The translations under genes and the position numbers were made by a program. Shown here piece by piece: positions 15,973 to 55,492 of a stretch of 57,656 nucleotides of DNA (its first letter is position 1; each line of letters opens with the position of its first letter). Source of the stretch: a virus; the IMG/VR virus record IMGVR_UViG_3300015371_000042, positions 1-57,656 of that record; one strand, 5' to 3'. Under the pieces are notes generated by a model. That model was given only the letters and a program-made list of their open reading frames with translations. It had not been told where the DNA came from and did no database searches.

Positions 15973-16614
15973 TCAGGCGGCGACCGGCTCGGCGGCCTCG
16001 ACGGGCTTGGCGGACAGCCAGGCATCCAGTTCGCGGCGCGTCGTCAAGTCCTGGCCTTCCGCGGTGCGCACCGGCATCTGCAGGCCGATGAAGTCGGAGG
16101 CGAGGATCAGCGTCGGCTTCATCGCACCGACCGACCACATCTGCACCGGGGCTGGCAGGTCCTTCCAGGCGCCGAAGAACTTCGGGGTCATCGCCATGTC
16201 GGCGACGGCCGCCTTCTTCTCCAGCAGCGGCAGCAGGAACTTGCGCCAGGACAGCGGCTCCTTGTCGGGCTGCGACAGGTTGATGGCGATGCGGCTGCCG
16301 GATTCGCCGGACAGGACGAGCTGGGTGTCGGTGCGCTGCAGGTCGATCGGCTTGGAGTCGAGGAGCCGAATGGCGGCGACCAGTTCCGGTACCTGCATGC
16401 GGTGCACGACGGCGGTCCACGGCTTGTCGTCGCCGCCGGTGACCTGGGTGCGGGAGACGGCCATGGTGAACCGGTTGGTGGCCATGGCGTACAGGTAGGT
16501 GCCGTCGTGGTCGAAGGCGATGGACTGCAGGGTTTCCGGGTCGTCTTTGCCGGCCATGTGCGGGCGGGCCTGGGCGACGAGGCGGCTGAGGGTGTGGTCG
16601 GCGATGGTGATCAC
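15973..16614 (-). CDS. sliding-clamp-like paralogue (short)
   Basis: 213 residues from GTG 16614 (AGGAGAACC ahead). The first ~60 residues follow a beta-clamp strand pattern (IAFDHDGTYLYAMATNRFTMAV). The C-terminal part PTLILASDFIGLQMPVR closely resembles the closing strand of DnaN, where the true clamp next door has its own VCMPVRLK ending. At 213 residues it can hold only two of the three clamp domains. It could be a partial or modified clamp, or a clamp-interacting mimic. It lies directly downstream of dnaN, separated by a hairpin. Confidence 0.5.
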   Translation of the reverse strand: MITIADHTLSRLVAQARPHMAGKDDPETLQSIAFDHDGTYLYAMATNRFTMAVSRTQVTGGDDKPWTAVVHRMQVPELVAAIRLLDSKPIDLQRTDTQLVLSGESGSRIAINLSQPDKEPLSWRKFLLPLLEKKAAVADMAMTPKFFGAWKDLPAPVQMWSVGAMKPTLILASDFIGLQMPVRTAEGQDLTTRRELDAWLSAKPVEAAEPVAA

Positions 16615-16644
16615 AGCGGGTTCTCCTGGGATGCTGGGTGGGGT

Positions 16645-16671
16645 GCCCCGCCGGATTCCGCCCGGCGGGGC
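16645..16671 (-). terminator. hairpin between dnaN and the clamp-like gene
   Basis: Perfect 10-bp arms GCCCCGCCGG and CCGGCGGGGC around a 7-base loop, just after the dnaN stop. It may reduce expression of the downstream clamp-like gene. Confidence 0.65.
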
Positions 16672-16677
16672 GTTCGG

Positions 16678-17787
16678 CTACTTGAGGCGGACGGGCATGC
16701 ACACGGCCCGGTAGGTGGCGTCGTCGACCGGCTCGATCAGCACGGGCTTGCTGGGCGTGTACAGCCAGATCCGCGCCGCCCCCTCGATGGGGGCCAGCAG
16801 CGAGGCGAGATAGTGCGGGTTGAAGGCGATGGTGAAGTCGTCGACGTCGCTGTCGGCTTCGACCTCGCTGCTGCCGCGCTGGCCTCCGCCGCCGCCCTGC
16901 ACCGTGGCCTTGCCGGCGCTGAACGAGACACGGATCGGGTTCTTCTCTTCGATGACCAGTGCGGCCCGCTTCACTGCGGCCACCAGTTCGGCGGCGTCCA
17001 CCAGCGCGGAGCCTGCCGCGGCTTCCGGCTTGGGGAAGAAGCCGCTGATGTCGGGAAACTTCCCGGCGATGGTGCGGCTGGTCACCGACAAGGAGTCGGT
17101 GGAGAGGGATGCCACCGATCCGTCCGCGTCGGCGAATCCGATGCGCACGGCGTGTCCAGCGGTCTGCTTGACGGTGGCCGCGAACTCGGCTGCCGGGATG
17201 AGCAGTTCGCCTGCCCTGTCGCTGCTGGGCTGCCACGGAATGGTGCGGCGCACGATGCGGTACCGGTCCGAGGCGGACACTACGAGCTGGTCGCCGTCGG
17301 CGAGGACGTGCACGCCGGCGAAGCCGATGAGGCTGCCAGCGGCCTCGGCCATGGGCAGGGTGCACTGTGCGGCGTGCCCGACTGCGGCGGCCAGAAGGTC
17401 GCCGTCGACGGTGCCGGCAACGCCGGGCGGTTCCGGAAGCGCCGGGTAGTCGGCGACGTCCATTGTCGGCAGGGCGAATGTGGTGCCCGGCGCGGACACG
17501 GTCACCTCGTGCTCGTCGGCGACCACATCCACCAGCCCGGCCGGGAAGGTTGCGGACACGTCGGCCAGGAGCCGGCCGGACACTAGGGCCCGGCCCGGTT
17601 CCAGCGTCTCGGCATCCAGGGTGGTTCGGGTGCTGGTCTCGTAGTCGAAGCCGGACAGTGTGACCGTGTCCACGGTGGCTTCGATGAGGAGTCCGGAGAG
17701 GACGGGTGCGAGCGGGTTGTTGGGGAGCCGGCGGTGGGCGCCGCGTGCGGCCTCCGCCAACTGCTTCTGGTCGATGCGGAGTTTCAC
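16678..17787 (-). CDS. dnaN: DNA polymerase III beta sliding clamp
   Basis: 369 residues, a full-length clamp with three domains: MKLRIDQKQLAEAARGA...LPNNPLAPVLSGLLIEA (domain 1), a middle with ASDRYRIVRRTIPW (domain 2), and FTIAFNPHYLASLLAPI ... YTPSKPVLIEPVDDATYRAVCMPVRLK (domain 3). Clamps encircle DNA and hold polymerase and repair factors. A phage-encoded DnaN would recruit the host replicase or phage factors to phage DNA. No phage DNA polymerase is in the window. The start is GTG 17787, overlapping a 40-residue upstream gene. Confidence 0.92.
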   Translation of the reverse strand: MKLRIDQKQLAEAARGAHRRLPNNPLAPVLSGLLIEATVDTVTLSGFDYETSTRTTLDAETLEPGRALVSGRLLADVSATFPAGLVDVVADEHEVTVSAPGTTFALPTMDVADYPALPEPPGVAGTVDGDLLAAAVGHAAQCTLPMAEAAGSLIGFAGVHVLADGDQLVVSASDRYRIVRRTIPWQPSSDRAGELLIPAAEFAATVKQTAGHAVRIGFADADGSVASLSTDSLSVTSRTIAGKFPDISGFFPKPEAAAGSALVDAAELVAAVKRAALVIEEKNPIRVSFSAGKATVQGGGGGQRGSSEVEADSDVDDFTIAFNPHYLASLLAPIEGAARIWLYTPSKPVLIEPVDDATYRAVCMPVRLK

Positions 17788-23347: not shown

Positions 23348-24691
23348 GTGGCCTACGCCGAGAAGGTCTACAAGGTCAAGAACGGCAAGCAGACAAAGCA
23401 GTACACGTGGCGGGTCAAGTACAAGAAGCCGGACGGCAAGTACGGGACCGAGTCCGGGTTCCCCACGAAGAACCTGGCTGAGCAGTGGGGCGATCAGCAG
23501 GAAGCCTCGATGCGGGCCGGAACGTGGATCGCGCCGGACAAGCTGCAGACGCCGTTCGGCGAGTGGGTGACGATCTGGAAGACCGCGAACAAGAAGCGCG
23601 CCCGCACCCAGAGCGATCGCGCCTACCTGCTGGACAAACTGCTGCTTCCCGAGTGGGAGTTCACGCCGCTGATGGAGGTGAACAACGTGTTCGCGGTGAA
23701 GTCGTGGGTGACTCGCATGGCGAAGCCTCACGGCCGACACGACCCCAACACGGTGGCGCGGGCCCGCAGTCTGCTCTCCACGATCCTGTCCGGCGCCGAG
23801 GATGCCGGCTACATCCACGCGAACAAGCTGTACGGGCGCCGCATCCTCGTGGGCACGGACCATCACGAGGAGGAAGAGGAGGTCTGGGCGCAACCGGACG
23901 AGGCTTACAGGCTGTACGACCGTCTCGGCGGCGTGCACGGGCTGATGGTTGTGGCGGACTGCTATCTGGGGCCGCGGTGGGGGGAGCTGGCGGGGCTGCA
24001 CCGGGACAACTGTCTCCTCAAGCGAGAGGACAGGATCAACGGGCGGCCGTTCGTTCGGCACGTCATCCGCATCGACCCGAAGATCGGCTCCCTGCACGAG
24101 GATCCGGTCGAGCTCGACGAGGAGGGGCTTGCCGCCTGGCTCAAGGCGGAGGATGAGCGCCTCGAGGAGTGCCGGGCCAAGGGGTGGAAGGCGACGCGGC
24201 GCAAGCCGCCGAAGAGCACCGTGGAGCTGTACCTGGGGCCGCCCAAGAACAAGTACAGCGCCCGCGAGGTGGACGTGCCGGAGTTCCTGGTGCGGCTGCT
24301 CGAGGAGCACATCGAGGCGTGGCCGCACGAGCATCCGTTCTCGACGCCGGGCGGGCAGTTCTGGCGGCGGGGCAACTTCACCCGCGGGCACCTGCGGCCG
24401 GCGGCCGACGGGCGGGAGGCGATTGTCCGTAAGCGCGGGTTCGCCGGCCGGGGTGCGTGGGATCCGATCGTGCCCGGGTTCACGATGCGCGGGGCGCGGC
24501 ATACGCACGACACGTGGATGAAGGACGACGGGGTGGACCGGGCCTTGCGGTTCTTGACGATGGGCTGGGTGCCGAAGGATATTGAGGGCACGTATGAGCA
24601 TGTGACGCCGGAGATGCGCAGGCATCGGCTGGAGCGTCTTGAGGCTCGTTGGGAGCGTGGGCAGCGGGTTGCGCTGCGGGGCGTGGGGTGA
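23348..24691 (+). CDS. int: tyrosine integrase
   Basis: 447 residues from GTG 23348 (AAGGGG ahead). N-terminal arm-binding domain (~1-60), core-binding domain (~65-160), catalytic domain from ~180. Catalytic residues visible are R210 in GPRWGEL, Lys near 300-302 in PPKNKYSAREVDVP, R384-H385 in RGARHTH, W407 in MGW and the nucleophile Y416 in GTYEHV. The first His of the usual HxxR box is replaced by R381. It directly precedes a terminator and the tRNA-Val-derived attP, so it is the phage integrase. Confidence 0.93.
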   Translation: MAYAEKVYKVKNGKQTKQYTWRVKYKKPDGKYGTESGFPTKNLAEQWGDQQEASMRAGTWIAPDKLQTPFGEWVTIWKTANKKRARTQSDRAYLLDKLLLPEWEFTPLMEVNNVFAVKSWVTRMAKPHGRHDPNTVARARSLLSTILSGAEDAGYIHANKLYGRRILVGTDHHEEEEEVWAQPDEAYRLYDRLGGVHGLMVVADCYLGPRWGELAGLHRDNCLLKREDRINGRPFVRHVIRIDPKIGSLHEDPVELDEEGLAAWLKAEDERLEECRAKGWKATRRKPPKSTVELYLGPPKNKYSAREVDVPEFLVRLLEEHIEAWPHEHPFSTPGGQFWRRGNFTRGHLRPAADGREAIVRKRGFAGRGAWDPIVPGFTMRGARHTHDTWMKDDGVDRALRFLTMGWVPKDIEGTYEHVTPEMRRHRLERLEARWERGQRVALRGVG

Positions 24692-30696: not shown

Positions 30697-31746
30697 CTAT
30701 GCCCCCTCCGCCTCCACTGCTCGCATTGCCGCGGCAATCTGGTCCTGCATCTTGTAGGACGGCGAGCGGTCCAGGGCGCCGGCGGCCCGGTCGTACCTGC
30801 GGGTGGTTCGAGGGTCGGCATGCCCCATCGCATCCTGTACATCCGCCAGCGGAACGCCCTTGCCCAGGAGTGCCGTGGCGTAGGAGTGGCGCAGCGAGTG
30901 AGGCGACAAGAGGTCTGCGTGCGGGATCCCGGCAGCCTTCGCAACACGTCGGACGAGGCGGAAGGCGGCCGGCTCATCCATCGGCTGCCCCGTGCTCGTC
31001 GCGAACAGCGGCTTCTCGGGGCCCGGCCCATCCCGCTCGGCGAGAAGCGCCTCCACGGCCGCGACTGCCATGGGTACGAGGACGAAGCGCTTCTTGTGGT
31101 CGCGTTTCGTCGTGAGGTCGATGACGCGGTGGCCCTGGTCGTGGCCGATATCTCCGACGCGGGCGTTGAGGACGGACCCGATTCGCGCGGCGGTCACGGA
31201 GAGCAGAACGAGGAGAGCGTAGGTGCGGGCCGTCTCGTGCTTGCGGGCATAGGTGAGGACTTGCGCCAGCTGCGCTGCCGTCATGCCGCGGGTGGGCGAG
31301 TCGTCGGCGGAGACTGACGGGCGCTCCATCCCGAAGAACGGGTTGCGCTCGGCCGCTTCGGCGCGGACGAGGTAGGCGTACCAGCTGGATGCTGCGGCGA
31401 GGCGGCGGGCCCGGGTCGACTTCGCAAGCTCGGCGTCGGTGAGTGCGGCGGCGTACTGGTCGGCTTGCAGTGGCCTGGCGAGTGCCGGGTTGGTTTCGCT
31501 GGCTGCGCACCAGGCGAGCCACCACGATGCGTCCTTGGCGTAGGCGGTACGACTGTGGATCGACTTGCGGCGAGCGAGCCATGTCGCCGTCGCCTCGACG
31601 ACGTTGGCCGCGGCGCCGGCATTTCGGAGGAGCGCCAGGAGGGTCTCAGGTGAGGAGGCGGGCGGGGCGCCCCGCAGGGAAAGCGTTGGAGTGGCGGTCG
31701 GCTCGAGGAACACCGGCCGTTCGGGCAGTGCGGGAAGGTCGGCCAT
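30697..31746 (-). CDS. XerC/XerD-like tyrosine recombinase
   Basis: 349 residues from ATG 31746. N-terminal SAM-like core-binding domain (~45-135), catalytic domain from ~150. R188 in TAARIGS, Lys near 214-219, H283-x-x-R286 in SPHSLRH, H309 in MGHAD and Y318 in TTRRYDRA give a complete catalytic set. The C-terminal MGHADPRTTRRYD pattern is of Xer type and differs from the integrase at 23348. TATCCT ends six bases before the ATG, so it may be leaderless. An almost perfect dif-like inverted repeat sits immediately upstream. Confidence 0.88.
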   Translation of the reverse strand: MADLPALPERPVFLEPTATPTLSLRGAPPASSPETLLALLRNAGAAANVVEATATWLARRKSIHSRTAYAKDASWWLAWCAASETNPALARPLQADQYAAALTDAELAKSTRARRLAAASSWYAYLVRAEAAERNPFFGMERPSVSADDSPTRGMTAAQLAQVLTYARKHETARTYALLVLLSVTAARIGSVLNARVGDIGHDQGHRVIDLTTKRDHKKRFVLVPMAVAAVEALLAERDGPGPEKPLFATSTGQPMDEPAAFRLVRRVAKAAGIPHADLLSPHSLRHSYATALLGKGVPLADVQDAMGHADPRTTRRYDRAAGALDRSPSYKMQDQIAAAMRAVEAEGA

Positions 31747-31747
31747 G

Positions 31748-31777
31748 GCTACAGGATAACGGTCATTATTCTGTAGC
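31748..31777. repeat. dif-like inverted repeat at recombinase start
   Basis: Left arm GCTACAGGATAA (31748-31759), spacer CGGTCA, right arm TTATTCTGTAGC (31766-31777). Arms match 11 of 12. The ATAA-N6-TTAT centre is the arrangement of bacterial dif sites (XerC arm, 6-bp crossover, XerD arm). The left arm also includes the putative -10 box of the recombinase gene, so it could double as an operator. Confidence 0.6.
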
Positions 31778-34757: not shown

Positions 34758-35104
34758 TTTGCCACCACCGCCCAGATCGCGATCGCGCTGGACACCACGG
34801 CCACCAGGACGGGGATGATCGCCGAGTAGAGGCGCTGTTGCCGGTCCCGTTCTCGCCGGTCTCGTTCATCGCGCTGGTACTGCTCGAACGAGTTCTCGAG
34901 GGCGGCGTTCGCGTCCCGTTCCTTCTGCAGATCCTGAGCAAGGGCGTTGATCCGCTGGTCGGTGTACGCGCTCTGTAGCGCGTACACCTCGGTGGAGACC
35001 ACTTTGTCGAGGCGGGAGTTGATGCCCTGGCCCATGGCCTGGATTTCATGGCGAAGGGCGTTGACGGTGCGCCCGAGTTCGCCGACAGACAGCTCATCGG
35101 GCAC
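34754..35104 (-). CDS. coiled coil with C-terminal membrane helix
   Basis: 116 residues from GTG 35104. Residues ~45-90 are a charged coiled coil (QDLQKERDANAALENSFEQY, then RDERDRRERDRQQ). Residues ~92-115 form a hydrophobic helix (YSAIIPVLVAVVSSAIAIWAVV). Position after the holin suggests a lysis accessory such as a spanin-like or second holin, without direct proof. Confidence 0.6.
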   Translation of the reverse strand: MPDELSVGELGRTVNALRHEIQAMGQGINSRLDKVVSTEVYALQSAYTDQRINALAQDLQKERDANAALENSFEQYQRDERDRRERDRQQRLYSAIIPVLVAVVSSAIAIWAVVAK

Positions 35105-37422: not shown

Positions 37423-37718
37423 GCGGCGGCAGCTTCAACTACCTGTGCAACACCTGGGACCTCGACGGCCTACTCACCAAAATGGGCGACCTCGAAGCCA
37501 TGTCCCAGGCGCTCGCCGCACTCGGCTACGCCAAAGACGCCGCCCGCGAGACCGAGGAACTCCTCGTCATCCTCCGCCAGTGGCAGGTGCAGACCGAGGT
37601 CCGGCTGGAACGGCTGACCCCGGTCTGGAAGGCAATGGAGTGGTGGCGGTCCTCCGACTGGAGCGAGGACGACCTCCGTGAAGAGCTCGCGAAGTACCGG
37701 GGAGAGGAGGCGCCGTGA
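37419..37718 (+). CDS. hypothetical protein
   Basis: 99 residues from ATG 37419 (ATGA overlap). It starts MSGGSFNYLCNTWDLDGLL, then long helices (EETEELLVILRQWQVQTEVRL) and aromatic WKAMEWWRSSDWSEDDLREEL. The MSGGSFNYLC start recurs in small actinophage proteins. Function unknown. Confidence 0.55.
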   Translation: MSGGSFNYLCNTWDLDGLLTKMGDLEAMSQALAALGYAKDAARETEELLVILRQWQVQTEVRLERLTPVWKAMEWWRSSDWSEDDLREELAKYRGEEAP

Positions 37719-37864
37719 ACACCGCGATCGCCATCACGCTGATCATCGCCGCCGCCCTCCTCCTCAACTCGGCGATCGTCGCCGCCCGCGACACCGCGAA
37801 GGCCAAACACCGTGCCAGGCACTGCGACGGCTGCACCTGCGGCAACAGCAAGGAGACGCCGTGA
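37715..37864 (+). CDS. 49-residue membrane protein with Cys tail
   Basis: GTG 37715 in a GTGA overlap. One membrane helix (AIAITLIIAAALLLNSAIVAA) then a basic segment and HCDGCTCGNSKETP. CxxCxC may bind metal on the cytoplasmic side. Coupled to the following glycosyltransferase, so it could tether or assist it; that is inference. Confidence 0.5.
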   Translation: MNTAIAITLIIAAALLLNSAIVAARDTAKAKHRARHCDGCTCGNSKETP

Positions 37865-38934
37865 CGCAGACCGTCGAACCCGCGCACCCCGCCTACGCCA
37901 TCCCTGCCGCCCTACGCGGCCCCGACTGGCGCGACCCCTACAACCACATCCCGCCCCTCGACGTGTTCGCATGGTCCGCCGACAAAAACGGCTGCGGCTA
38001 CTACCGCACCCAACTCCCCATGCAGGGCCTCGCCGCACTCGGCTACGCCACCCACCACGCCACCCGGCTCCCCCAACCCGTCCGCCACAACCGGGACGTC
38101 ACCGTCATCGGGCAGCGCGTCTGCGACCCCAACCCCAGCATCATGTGGCAGCAGCTCGCATCTGAGGGCCGCCACCTCATCTACGAAGTCGACGACGACC
38201 TGTTCACCGTCGACCACCGCTCCCCCGCCGCCCACCAGTACTACGGGCGGCCCGAAGTGCGCGACAACATCCGCCGCAACATCGAAGTCGCCGCCGCGGT
38301 AACGGTGACGACGGAGCCGCTCGCCGACATCGTCCGCCAGTGGAACCCGAACGTGCACGTCATCCCCAACGCCGTCCCCGACTGGCTCATCGACCACCAG
38401 ATCCCGCAGCCCGACGACGGCACGATCACCATCGGCTGGGGCGGATCCGCCACCCACGGCATGGACTGGGACCACACCGGCCAGCAGATACGGCGCCTCC
38501 TCCAACGCGAACCAAGCACCGTGCTGCACTGCATCGGCAACGACTACGGCGCCCTGCTCAAAGCCCCGCGCCGCAGGTTCACGCCGTGGCAGCAGAGCGT
38601 CGAGGACTACTACCGGGCCATCGACTACACCATCGGCGTGATCCCCCTCCTGCCGCACGTCTTCAACGTCGCCAAGAGCGCGATCAAGGCAACCGAGGCC
38701 GCGGCCCTCGGCATCCCCGTCGTCGCCAGTGCCGTCCGGCCCTACGAGGACTTCGTCCAAGACGGCACCACCGGCTACCTCGTGCGCCGCGACCACGAAT
38801 GGGCCACCGCCCTACGCACCCTCATCCACGAACCCGACATGCGCGCCGAGATGGGCCTCGCCGCCCGCGAACAAGCCCGCCGCTACACGCTCAGCGCCAT
38901 CGCGCCCCTCTGGGAGAAAGCCCTCACCGCATGA
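37861..38934 (+). CDS. GT-B glycosyltransferase (GT4-like)
   Basis: 357 residues from GTG 37861 (GTGA overlap). The Rossmann-like N-half has YYRTQLPMQGLAALGY and IYEVDDDLFTVD. The C-half has VIPNAVPDW, TIGWGGSATHGMDW, AKSAIKATEAAALGIPVVASAVRPYEDFVQDGTTGYLV (donor-binding E-x7-E type region) and a final helix. This is a retaining GT4 fold that uses nucleotide sugars. Two GT-A enzymes, an oxygenase and a methyltransferase follow, so a glycan-building role is likely. The acceptor is unknown. Confidence 0.85.
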   Translation: MTQTVEPAHPAYAIPAALRGPDWRDPYNHIPPLDVFAWSADKNGCGYYRTQLPMQGLAALGYATHHATRLPQPVRHNRDVTVIGQRVCDPNPSIMWQQLASEGRHLIYEVDDDLFTVDHRSPAAHQYYGRPEVRDNIRRNIEVAAAVTVTTEPLADIVRQWNPNVHVIPNAVPDWLIDHQIPQPDDGTITIGWGGSATHGMDWDHTGQQIRRLLQREPSTVLHCIGNDYGALLKAPRRRFTPWQQSVEDYYRAIDYTIGVIPLLPHVFNVAKSAIKATEAAALGIPVVASAVRPYEDFVQDGTTGYLVRRDHEWATALRTLIHEPDMRAEMGLAAREQARRYTLSAIAPLWEKALTA

Positions 38935-39128
38935 GCGCCCCGCTGAACCTGACCGCGGAGCAACTCCGCAAGCTCGGCGCCGTCCTCGACGAGCTGACCG
39001 AGATCACCAAGAGCCACGGAGTCAGCTTCACCCCGCACACCCGACTCGAGCTCGGGCTGGACGACAACGTGCTGACGGCGTCCTGGGACGGCAGCGCCTA
39101 CGTCATCGACGACCGCAACGGAGACTGA
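38931..39128 (+). CDS. small hypothetical protein
   Basis: 65 residues from ATG 38931 (ATGA overlap). A helix (TAEQLRKLGAVLDELTEITK) then beta strands (VSFTPHTRLELGLDDNVLTASW, YVIDDRNGD). It lies between the GT4 and the oxygenase. Function unknown. Confidence 0.55.
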   Translation: MSAPLNLTAEQLRKLGAVLDELTEITKSHGVSFTPHTRLELGLDDNVLTASWDGSAYVIDDRNGD

Positions 39129-39134
39129 CCGCCC

Positions 39135-39785
39135 ATGAACCTCACCATCCCGGCCGCCGGGCGCGCCGCCTTCCAGAACGCGGCCCCGTTCCCCCACGCC
39201 GTACTCGACGACCTGTGGGACCCCGACCAGCTGCGCGGGTGCGCCGCAGAGTTCCCGCCCGGCCACGACCCCCGCTGGACCACCTACCCGGATCCGAAGG
39301 AGTACGGCAAGCGCGCCGGCGACTCCCGCATGTGGGGGCCGGCCACGAAGCAGTTCTTCGAGCAGGCCCGCTCCGCCGCCGTCTGCAGGCAGCTGGAGGA
39401 GTGGACGGGGATCGCCCCGCTGACTGCGGACGATCTCGGCGGCGGGATGCACATGACGGGCGAGGGCGGCCGGCTCGCGATGCACCGGGACTTCAACCGG
39501 CACCCCACGCTGCCGCTCGAGCGGCGACTGAACCTGCTCGTGTTCCTCAACGAGGAGTGGGAGCGGGAGTGGGGCGGCGTCCTCTACCTGGGCGCGGAGC
39601 GGGAGGTTGAGGTGCTGCCGCTATTCAACCGCACCGTGCTGTTCGCGTGTGGCCCGGAGTCGTGGCACGGCCATCCGGAGCCGATCGTCGGCGAGCACTG
39701 GCGGCGGAGTCTCGCGGTGTACTACTACGCGCCTCTGCGCGAGGAGACCGCGCCGGGGCACACCACGATCTGGAGCGGGCAGTGA
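39135..39785 (+). CDS. 2OG-Fe(II) oxygenase, prolyl-4-hydroxylase-like
   Basis: 216 residues from ATG 39135. The double-stranded beta-helix facial triad is visible: H117 and D119 in LAMHRDF, H178 in ESWHGH, and R190/R191 (RRSLAVYYY) for 2-oxoglutarate. LNLLVFLNEEWEREWGGVLYLG and TVLFACG fill the core strands as in P4H-type enzymes. These hydroxylate Pro, Lys, Asp or small molecules. It lies inside the glycosyltransferase cluster and ~4.4 kb from a collagen-like gene. The substrate is not known. Confidence 0.85.
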   Translation: MNLTIPAAGRAAFQNAAPFPHAVLDDLWDPDQLRGCAAEFPPGHDPRWTTYPDPKEYGKRAGDSRMWGPATKQFFEQARSAAVCRQLEEWTGIAPLTADDLGGGMHMTGEGGRLAMHRDFNRHPTLPLERRLNLLVFLNEEWEREWGGVLYLGAEREVEVLPLFNRTVLFACGPESWHGHPEPIVGEHWRRSLAVYYYAPLREETAPGHTTIWSGQ

Positions 39786-54779: not shown

Positions 54780-55477
54780 ATCCTTTGGTTGGTGGCCGCT
54801 TCGGGCCGGTAGTCGATGGTGTTGGTCCCCTTGGACGAGTTGCAGGGGCCGCAGAGGGGCTGGACGTTGTCAGCCATGTTGGGTCCGCCCTTAGAGACAG
54901 GGATGACGTGGTCGATGGTGAGAGCGCCGTCGATTCCGCAGGCGAGGCACCGGTGCTCGTACTTGTCGAGGATCTGGAGCCATTCGGCGGCGGTGAGTAC
55001 ACCTGCGGCGCGGCGGCGCTGCTTCTTCAACCGTGCAGTGAGCGCGGCCCGCTCGGGGTTGTCCCTGGCCCACTGAACTGCGCCCGCGACGAGCCGTTCA
55101 CGGTTGCGCTCGTAGTACGCCCGCTGCTCAGCAACACGCTTCGCCTTGTGCCGCTCGAACGACTCCATGACGCGCTGCCTACGGCAGGTCTTGCACTGCC
55201 GGTTGCCCTTGTAGAGGTAGGTGTTCTCCTCGGTGTACGGGTGCCCCTGAGCGCAGGCCTCCTTGCGGGCGTTCGCGTTCCCCTTGAGGCCACCCTTGTA
55301 CTTCCGCATGCGCTCCCTGCATGCCGCACGCGACTCTTCCAGGTTGGCCGCGTACCGCTCGCGGGCTCGCATGTTTCTGCACTCGCGGCAGGCGGTCCCT
55401 GCCCCGTTCTTCGCGGTGTTCTCGGGCGACTTGGGGTGGCCGCATCGGAAGGTGTCCACGCGCAGGCTCCTATTCAT
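54776..55477 (-). CDS. HNH homing-type endonuclease inserted in late operon
   Basis: 233 residues from ATG 55477; longer frames read through a palindrome and are unlikely. The N-half has CGHPKSPENTAKNGAGTACRECRN and CAQGHPYTEENTYLYKGNRQCKTC, two Cys/His knuckles of DNA-binding type, then a long basic helix. The C-terminus holds the HNH core CLACGIDGALTIDHVIPVSKGG ... NVQPLCGPCNSSKG. Such genes act as mobile homing endonucleases. It separates the connector genes from the major tail protein. Confidence 0.85.
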   Translation of the reverse strand: MNRSLRVDTFRCGHPKSPENTAKNGAGTACRECRNMRARERYAANLEESRAACRERMRKYKGGLKGNANARKEACAQGHPYTEENTYLYKGNRQCKTCRRQRVMESFERHKAKRVAEQRAYYERNRERLVAGAVQWARDNPERAALTARLKKQRRRAAGVLTAAEWLQILDKYEHRCLACGIDGALTIDHVIPVSKGGPNMADNVQPLCGPCNSSKGTNTIDYRPEAATNQRM

Positions 55478-55492
55478 AGTGACTATGAATAG
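55470..55492. promoter_or_regulatory. 23-bp palindrome at HNH start
   Basis: CTATTCATAG, TGA, CTATGAATAG: perfect 10-bp arms. It spans the HNH ATG on the minus strand and lies between it and the + strand HTH gene, so it is a likely operator. GTGACTATGAA from its right part recurs at about 55511, at the HTH gene start. Confidence 0.65.

Follow-up and report, generated by a model that had tools for sequence, protein, structure and literature searches.

An Xer-like recombinase gene and its adjacent dif-like site in a putative Streptomyces phage, with related pairs on actinobacterial phages and plasmids

Why should a phage that possesses a tRNA-Val integrase encode a second, Xer-like tyrosine recombinase whose gene starts directly beside a dif-like inverted repeat? 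The stretch of DNA analysed here (the window, 57,656 nt) represents a temperate siphophage, the host of which is most likely a Streptomyces. Its nearest tape-measure relatives belong to the Streptomyces phages Zuko, Kromp and KimJongPhill, and window positions 1-25000 yielded no nucleotide match to a known phage. The recombinase gene has the tail/endolysin region on one side and the integrase region on the other, in a genome that also codes for a RecE-like exonuclease, a sliding clamp, a BRO antirepressor and an endolysin. Within 15973-17787, the sliding clamp gene (16678-17787) precedes a shorter clamp-like gene of the same orientation (15973-16614, a weak match), and moron-like glycosyltransferase and 2OG-Fe(II) oxygenase genes are present in the late region (37678-39785). 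Two further inverted repeats in the window are perfect, one of 12 bp with a 4-bp gap (34961-34988, GGTGTACGCGCT/AGCGCGTACACC) and one of 11 bp with a 1-bp gap (55470-55492, CTATTCATAGT/ACTATGAATAG), the latter being AT-rich inside a GC-rich phage.

Table 1. Position of the recombinase gene, its dif-like site and the separate integration system in the window
Feature	Position	Strand	Basis or remark
Xer-like tyrosine recombinase, 349 aa	30697..31746	-	Pfam PF00589 (1.9e-26); catalytic residues; predicted fold
30-bp inverted repeat, putative private dif-like site	31748..31777	-	28-bp form at 31749-31776
6-bp non-palindromic centre, TGACCG gene-ward	31760..31765	-	presumed strand-exchange region; cleavage positions putative
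TATCCT, candidate -10 of a leaderless promoter in the gene-proximal arm	31753..31758	-	suggested by fixed spacing
Tyrosine-type integrase P0002, tRNA-Val integration; outside the module	23348..24691	+	PHROG_1 integrase (2.2e-31)
attP core of P0002	about 24786..24834		matches 3' part of tRNA-Val(UAC)

A preliminary description of this DNA had placed the repeat one base from the start of a XerC/D-like gene, and both positions were confirmed, with the repeat at 31748-31777 and the ATG at 31746-31744. As written on the window, the repeat reads GCTACAGGATAA-CGGTCA-TTATTCTGTAGC. Its 12-bp arms match at 11 of 12 positions, enclose the 6-bp centre and form an ATAA-N6-TTAT core. Read towards the gene, the 28-bp form is CTACAGAATAA TGACCG TTATCCTGTAG, which displays the 11-6-11 layout of dif with arms agreeing at 10/11 positions. 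Shuffles of the window contained the repeat pattern zero times.

The encoded protein harbors the complete catalytic set of tyrosine recombinases, R-K-H-R-H-Y (R188, K214, H283, R286, H309 and Y318), and R188, K214, H283, H309 and Y318 are invariant in an alignment of 30 rows. Its best NCBIfam matches are XerD (117.7 bits, cut-off 329.6) and XerC (109.6 bits, cut-off 335.15). Both scores lie under the equivalog cut-offs, and the protein is thus neither a housekeeping-grade XerD nor a housekeeping-grade XerC. The AF2 model (pLDDT 85.6, pTM 0.58) has XerA, XerH and Cre as Foldseek neighbours. The alignment additionally revealed that the second catalytic arginine (HxxR) is replaced by lysine in Streptomyces plasmid clades (L016, L017, L024, L032, L072 and L092), which is unusual among tyrosine recombinases.

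Relatives of the recombinase with 67-89% identity are encoded on six other IMG/VR contigs. In all seven phages the 24-bp core ACAGAATAATGACCGTTATCCTGT is exactly identical, the TGACCG centre is invariant and 2 bp separate the 28-bp site from the recombinase start codon. The adjoining 60 bp upstream, by contrast, agree at a mean of 36% in an aligned set of nine. When the seven contigs (475,870 bp) were scanned with the pattern TAA-N6-TTA and flanking arms matching at no fewer than 7/11 positions (at least 7/11), seven sites were obtained, each beside the recombinase gene and none elsewhere. The repeat is hence present beside every close homologue, as expected of the private recombinase/dif-like pair that had been proposed, and by sequence comparison the pairing of site and recombinase is beyond chance. 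Since the spacing to the start codon is fixed, the site may also carry a promoter. The earlier proposal that the arm includes the -10 box of the gene is plausible in that class-1 relatives have exactly 6 nt between the end of TATCCT and the ATG; a sigma-70 scan returned no promoter. The arrangement suggests that the dif-like site may double as a promoter and that the recombinase may regulate itself. About 50-60 bp upstream from the site, L002, L005 and L010 have in common a motif, TAGCGCATAACG, which resembles a dif half-site.

The existence of a separate tRNA-Val integrase with its attP was borne out. P0002 is 38% identical to a sequence of actinophage RP3, and the attP core matches tRNA-Val(UAC) genes over 43-45 bp at 100% in several Streptomyces genomes. 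An integrase is visible in four of the seven phage contigs, and a search for ParA by PF13614 only found none in the seven contigs, some of which are possibly incomplete. Positive support for a phage-plasmid stage was not obtained.

Actinobacterial plasmids and genomes encode more distant relatives of the recombinase (27-54% identity). A maximum-likelihood tree sets the 34 rows of the family apart from four host XerC/D proteins as well as from two Gordonia phage integrases. The layout N7-ATAA-TKACNG-TTAT-N7 recurs in most of these relatives with arms that are specific to the clade, e.g. ATGCGTG in a Kocuria plasmid, CCCAGTG in Micromonospora and ATGGTGG in one Streptomyces group. All of the 28 sites tabulated have ATAA and TTAT, and the centre is mostly T-G/T-A-C-N-G, in line with a TNACNG-like centre in most of the wider family. 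The 2-bp spacing of the 28-bp site to the start codon is likewise kept in many members from several clades. Elsewhere in the family the upstream distance grows to 190-1,050 bp or cargo genes intervene, and L013 has its site downstream of the gene. An intact canonical site was not found at L070, L083, L085 and L095, and two plasmid members deviate from the canonical form, L087 with a 7-bp centre and L091 with half a site. In one Streptomyces plasmid clade (L021, L026, L027, L033, L034, L035, L084 and L090), other genes lie between site and recombinase, among them a recurring LDFPPVRNG-type protein without Pfam match and HTH_31 regulators; several of these loci keep a short MLTPDQ-like start-codon leader after the site. 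Many member plasmids are recorded as circular, with sizes of 4.4 kb (pKPAL3) to 116 kb and larger, and two plasmid records with related recombinases (104.8 and 413.8 kb) are listed as linear. The Streptomyces plasmid NBC_01220 groups with phage contig L010 inside the phage clade, and its site matches the phage core at 23/24 positions, differing in one base. The 26,964-bp record of this plasmid (L012, NZ_CP108534.1), which carries the module, consists of two exact 13,482-bp copies joined head to tail; this may reflect either assembly or incomplete resolution.

We also analyzed whether host genomes contain copies of the site. In a collection-wide scan of GTDB, 19 loci matched a loosened form of the site pattern. 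Seventeen of them are actinobacterial, and all 17 have a homologous recombinase near the site (including the truncated L029 once it was settled); the other two, in a Chitinophaga and an archaeal MAG, are without a recombinase and chance-like. Among 394 Streptomyces genomes, six possess the site, one per replicon and always with the cognate recombinase within about 3 kb. Neither the GTDB scan nor the 394 Streptomyces genomes contained an orphan, attB-like copy at this level of similarity, which a diverged attB could escape. Three candidate orphan sites (L073, L077 and L078) were rejected because longer flanks contained the cognate recombinase, and an apparent double site in G107 was traced to a single site in a 37,165-bp circle whose contig ends overlap.

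The preliminary description had envisaged integration at host dif as one possible role, which was not supported. Compared with the published dif of Frankia alni, CACGCCGATAATGCACATTATGTCAAGT (PMC3025954), the phage site differs in its symmetric arms and its TGACCG centre. A Frankia-like dif pattern, ATAATGNNCATTATGTCAA, was absent from the few Streptomyces genomes tested with this one pattern and present once in two other Actinobacteria. At E<=1e-50, the XerD model matched 0/199 Streptomyces genomes and 34/35 Frankiaceae genomes; the XerC model at E<=1e-40 matched 6/101 Streptomyces genomes with 143-180 bits, far under its cut-off. Judging from these gene surveys, host Xer recombination is probably not available to a circular element in Streptomyces. 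Since family members are also found in hosts having XerC/D (Frankia and an Actinomycetales MAG), the absence of host XerC/D accounts for only part of the distribution of the family.

We consider it likely that the locus constitutes a single-recombinase Xer/dif module of the Cre/lox kind, which would resolve circular multimers or tandem prophages and whose site would additionally have a promoter or autoregulatory role. Binding, cleavage, resolution and autoregulation by the recombinase at this site are what we infer from the comparisons above. Such a module, consisting of one Xer-like recombinase and one dif-like site, would be compact, mobile and self-sufficient. Because the two 11-bp arms are near-identical, a single protein could occupy both of them, as in Cre/lox, XerH/difH and XerS and unlike the XerC plus XerD pair. 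The substrate would be two copies of the element in one molecule, originating from tandem prophages or from circular dimers that recombination or replication produces in the infected cell; in the case of an integrating phage, these would be circular dimers present before integration or, again, tandem prophages. The recombinase would pair the two sites and exchange strands around the 6-bp centre to release monomers, and since this centre is non-palindromic it would give the site a polarity that favors resolution of direct repeats. As the site is situated just upstream of the start codon, recombinase bound there would limit its own transcription. An element in a Streptomyces host without XerC/XerD-grade recombinases could not borrow a host system, and would for this reason bring its own recombinase.

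Multimer resolution is preferred over integration because there is one site per element, orphan host copies are absent and the family is present on circular plasmids. Of the earlier suggestion that the pair resolves multimers of a circular phage-plasmid stage, resolution is thus retained as the best-supported role, while the plasmid stage lacks positive support, no ParA having been found by PF13614 and an integrase being visible in four of seven contigs. Dimer resolution is a less evident requirement here than in a plasmid, because the phage uses tRNA-Val for integration and no ParA was found in it. Several observations count against resolution: no recombination product or junction at the site was seen, the two linear plasmid records should have no need of it, NBC_01220 is recorded as an exact dimer, and L083, L085, L087, L091 and L095 are without a recognisable intact canonical site. 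A wider proposal, which we regard as unlikely, holds that actinobacterial phages and plasmids share a family of single-recombinase Xer/dif cassettes in which dif is the leaderless promoter of the recombinase and which replace the XerC/D absent in Streptomyces, the identical sites also letting unrelated phages and plasmids fuse in a site-specific manner.

The repeat might alternatively be an operator alone, at which a dimeric regulator or the recombinase controls the recombinase gene and no recombination takes place. That many members of several clades keep 2 bp between site and start codon, and that a candidate leaderless -10 lies inside the arm, would fit this explanation, but an operator would not account for the exact dif geometry or for a 6-bp centre conserved as strongly as the arms; the site lies 190-1,050 bp upstream, behind cargo genes or downstream of the gene (L013) in other members, and none of the seven phages has a second operator-like copy. 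The operator role that had been considered before could therefore exist alongside recombination at the site but is improbable as its sole function. Another reading, according to which the main effect of the module is to join phages and plasmids that share a cell and thereby to drive module exchange, could draw on the 24-bp core that is identical in seven phages and retained at 23/24 in NBC_01220, on the nesting of this plasmid within the phage clade, and on the orientation of the recombinase gene relative to the tail genes, which varies between phages. Recognition by the recombinase also explains the conservation, however, and neither a fused element nor a site-precise switch of flanks was seen, which makes fusion as the main role quite improbable. 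Very improbable is a second integration system for which host dif, or some other copy of the site in the chromosome, would be the target of the phage: tyrosine recombinases often integrate, and CTXphi-type phages enter dif via host XerC/D (PMC4246890), but the genome scans yielded no orphan site, arms and centre are unlike published actinobacterial dif, none of the 199 Streptomyces has an XerD-grade gene and the phage already has its tRNA-Val integrase and attP.

The tie between gene and site across phages and plasmids makes the role of the module directly testable. This matters since precedents exist whose role is unexplained, namely second tyrosine recombinases of actinophages (PMC5559632) and a phage Xer-like gene with an 11-6-11 repeat (PMC9703825), and the absence of XerD-grade genes in the sampled Streptomyces suggests why circular elements there would carry their own recombinase. 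The family provides new, apparently self-sufficient recombinase/site pairs with differing arm specificities, which could become Cre-like tools for high-GC Actinobacteria.

When compared to characterized systems, the module resembles XerCD/dif in its 11-6-11 site, its ATAA-N6-TTAT core and its best family-model matches. It differs in being element-borne, in having one recombinase that scores far under the XerC/D cut-offs, and in its other arms and centre; the asymmetric arms that serve two recombinases in XerCD/dif are replaced by near-symmetric ones (10/11, or 11/12 with the outer base). A single recombinase is shared with XerH/difH, XerS/difSL and archaeal XerA, of which XerS is genetically linked to its site (PMC2731167) and XerA and XerH are nearest in fold. 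These systems are chromosomal, whereas the present family resides on phages and plasmids. P1 Cre/lox likewise combines one phage-encoded tyrosine recombinase with a dedicated site, and the predicted fold is similar; the layout of lox is 13-8-13. Cre/lox keeps the P1 plasmid monomeric (PMC2409434), P1 being a plasmid prophage with ParA/ParB, in contrast to the phage described here with its tRNA-Val integrase and no ParA found. Xer-family genes do occur in plasmid prophages (PMC8026635).

The nearest phage precedent in form is gp50 of the Bacillus Tyrovirus, a Xer-like recombinase with adjacent 11-bp inverted repeats around a 6-bp core that are conserved among relatives and whose role is unexplained (PMC9703825). 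The likeness is one of published site layout alone, and gp50 differs in its Bacillus hosts and in a site downstream of the gene. MrpA of the Streptomyces plasmid SCP2 is a plasmid-encoded tyrosine recombinase that resolves multimers (cited in PMC3218068). No dif-like site was found on SCP2, and a common origin with MrpA was rejected (BLASTP E 0.017, no convincing similarity). Gordonia phages with two tyrosine integrases, e.g. Howe gp36 and Culver gp60, have been described, the role of the second one being unsettled (PMC5559632). These second integrases are distant homologues (about 30%), located in several phages beside another integrase, and no dif-like site was found near the two Gordonia phage examples examined. 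The literature searched, mostly non-subscription papers, contained no description of the present phage/plasmid family. Hence, while modules of this kind are known from P1 Cre/lox, Tyrovirus gp50 and SCP2 MrpA, the family and its setting appear to be new.
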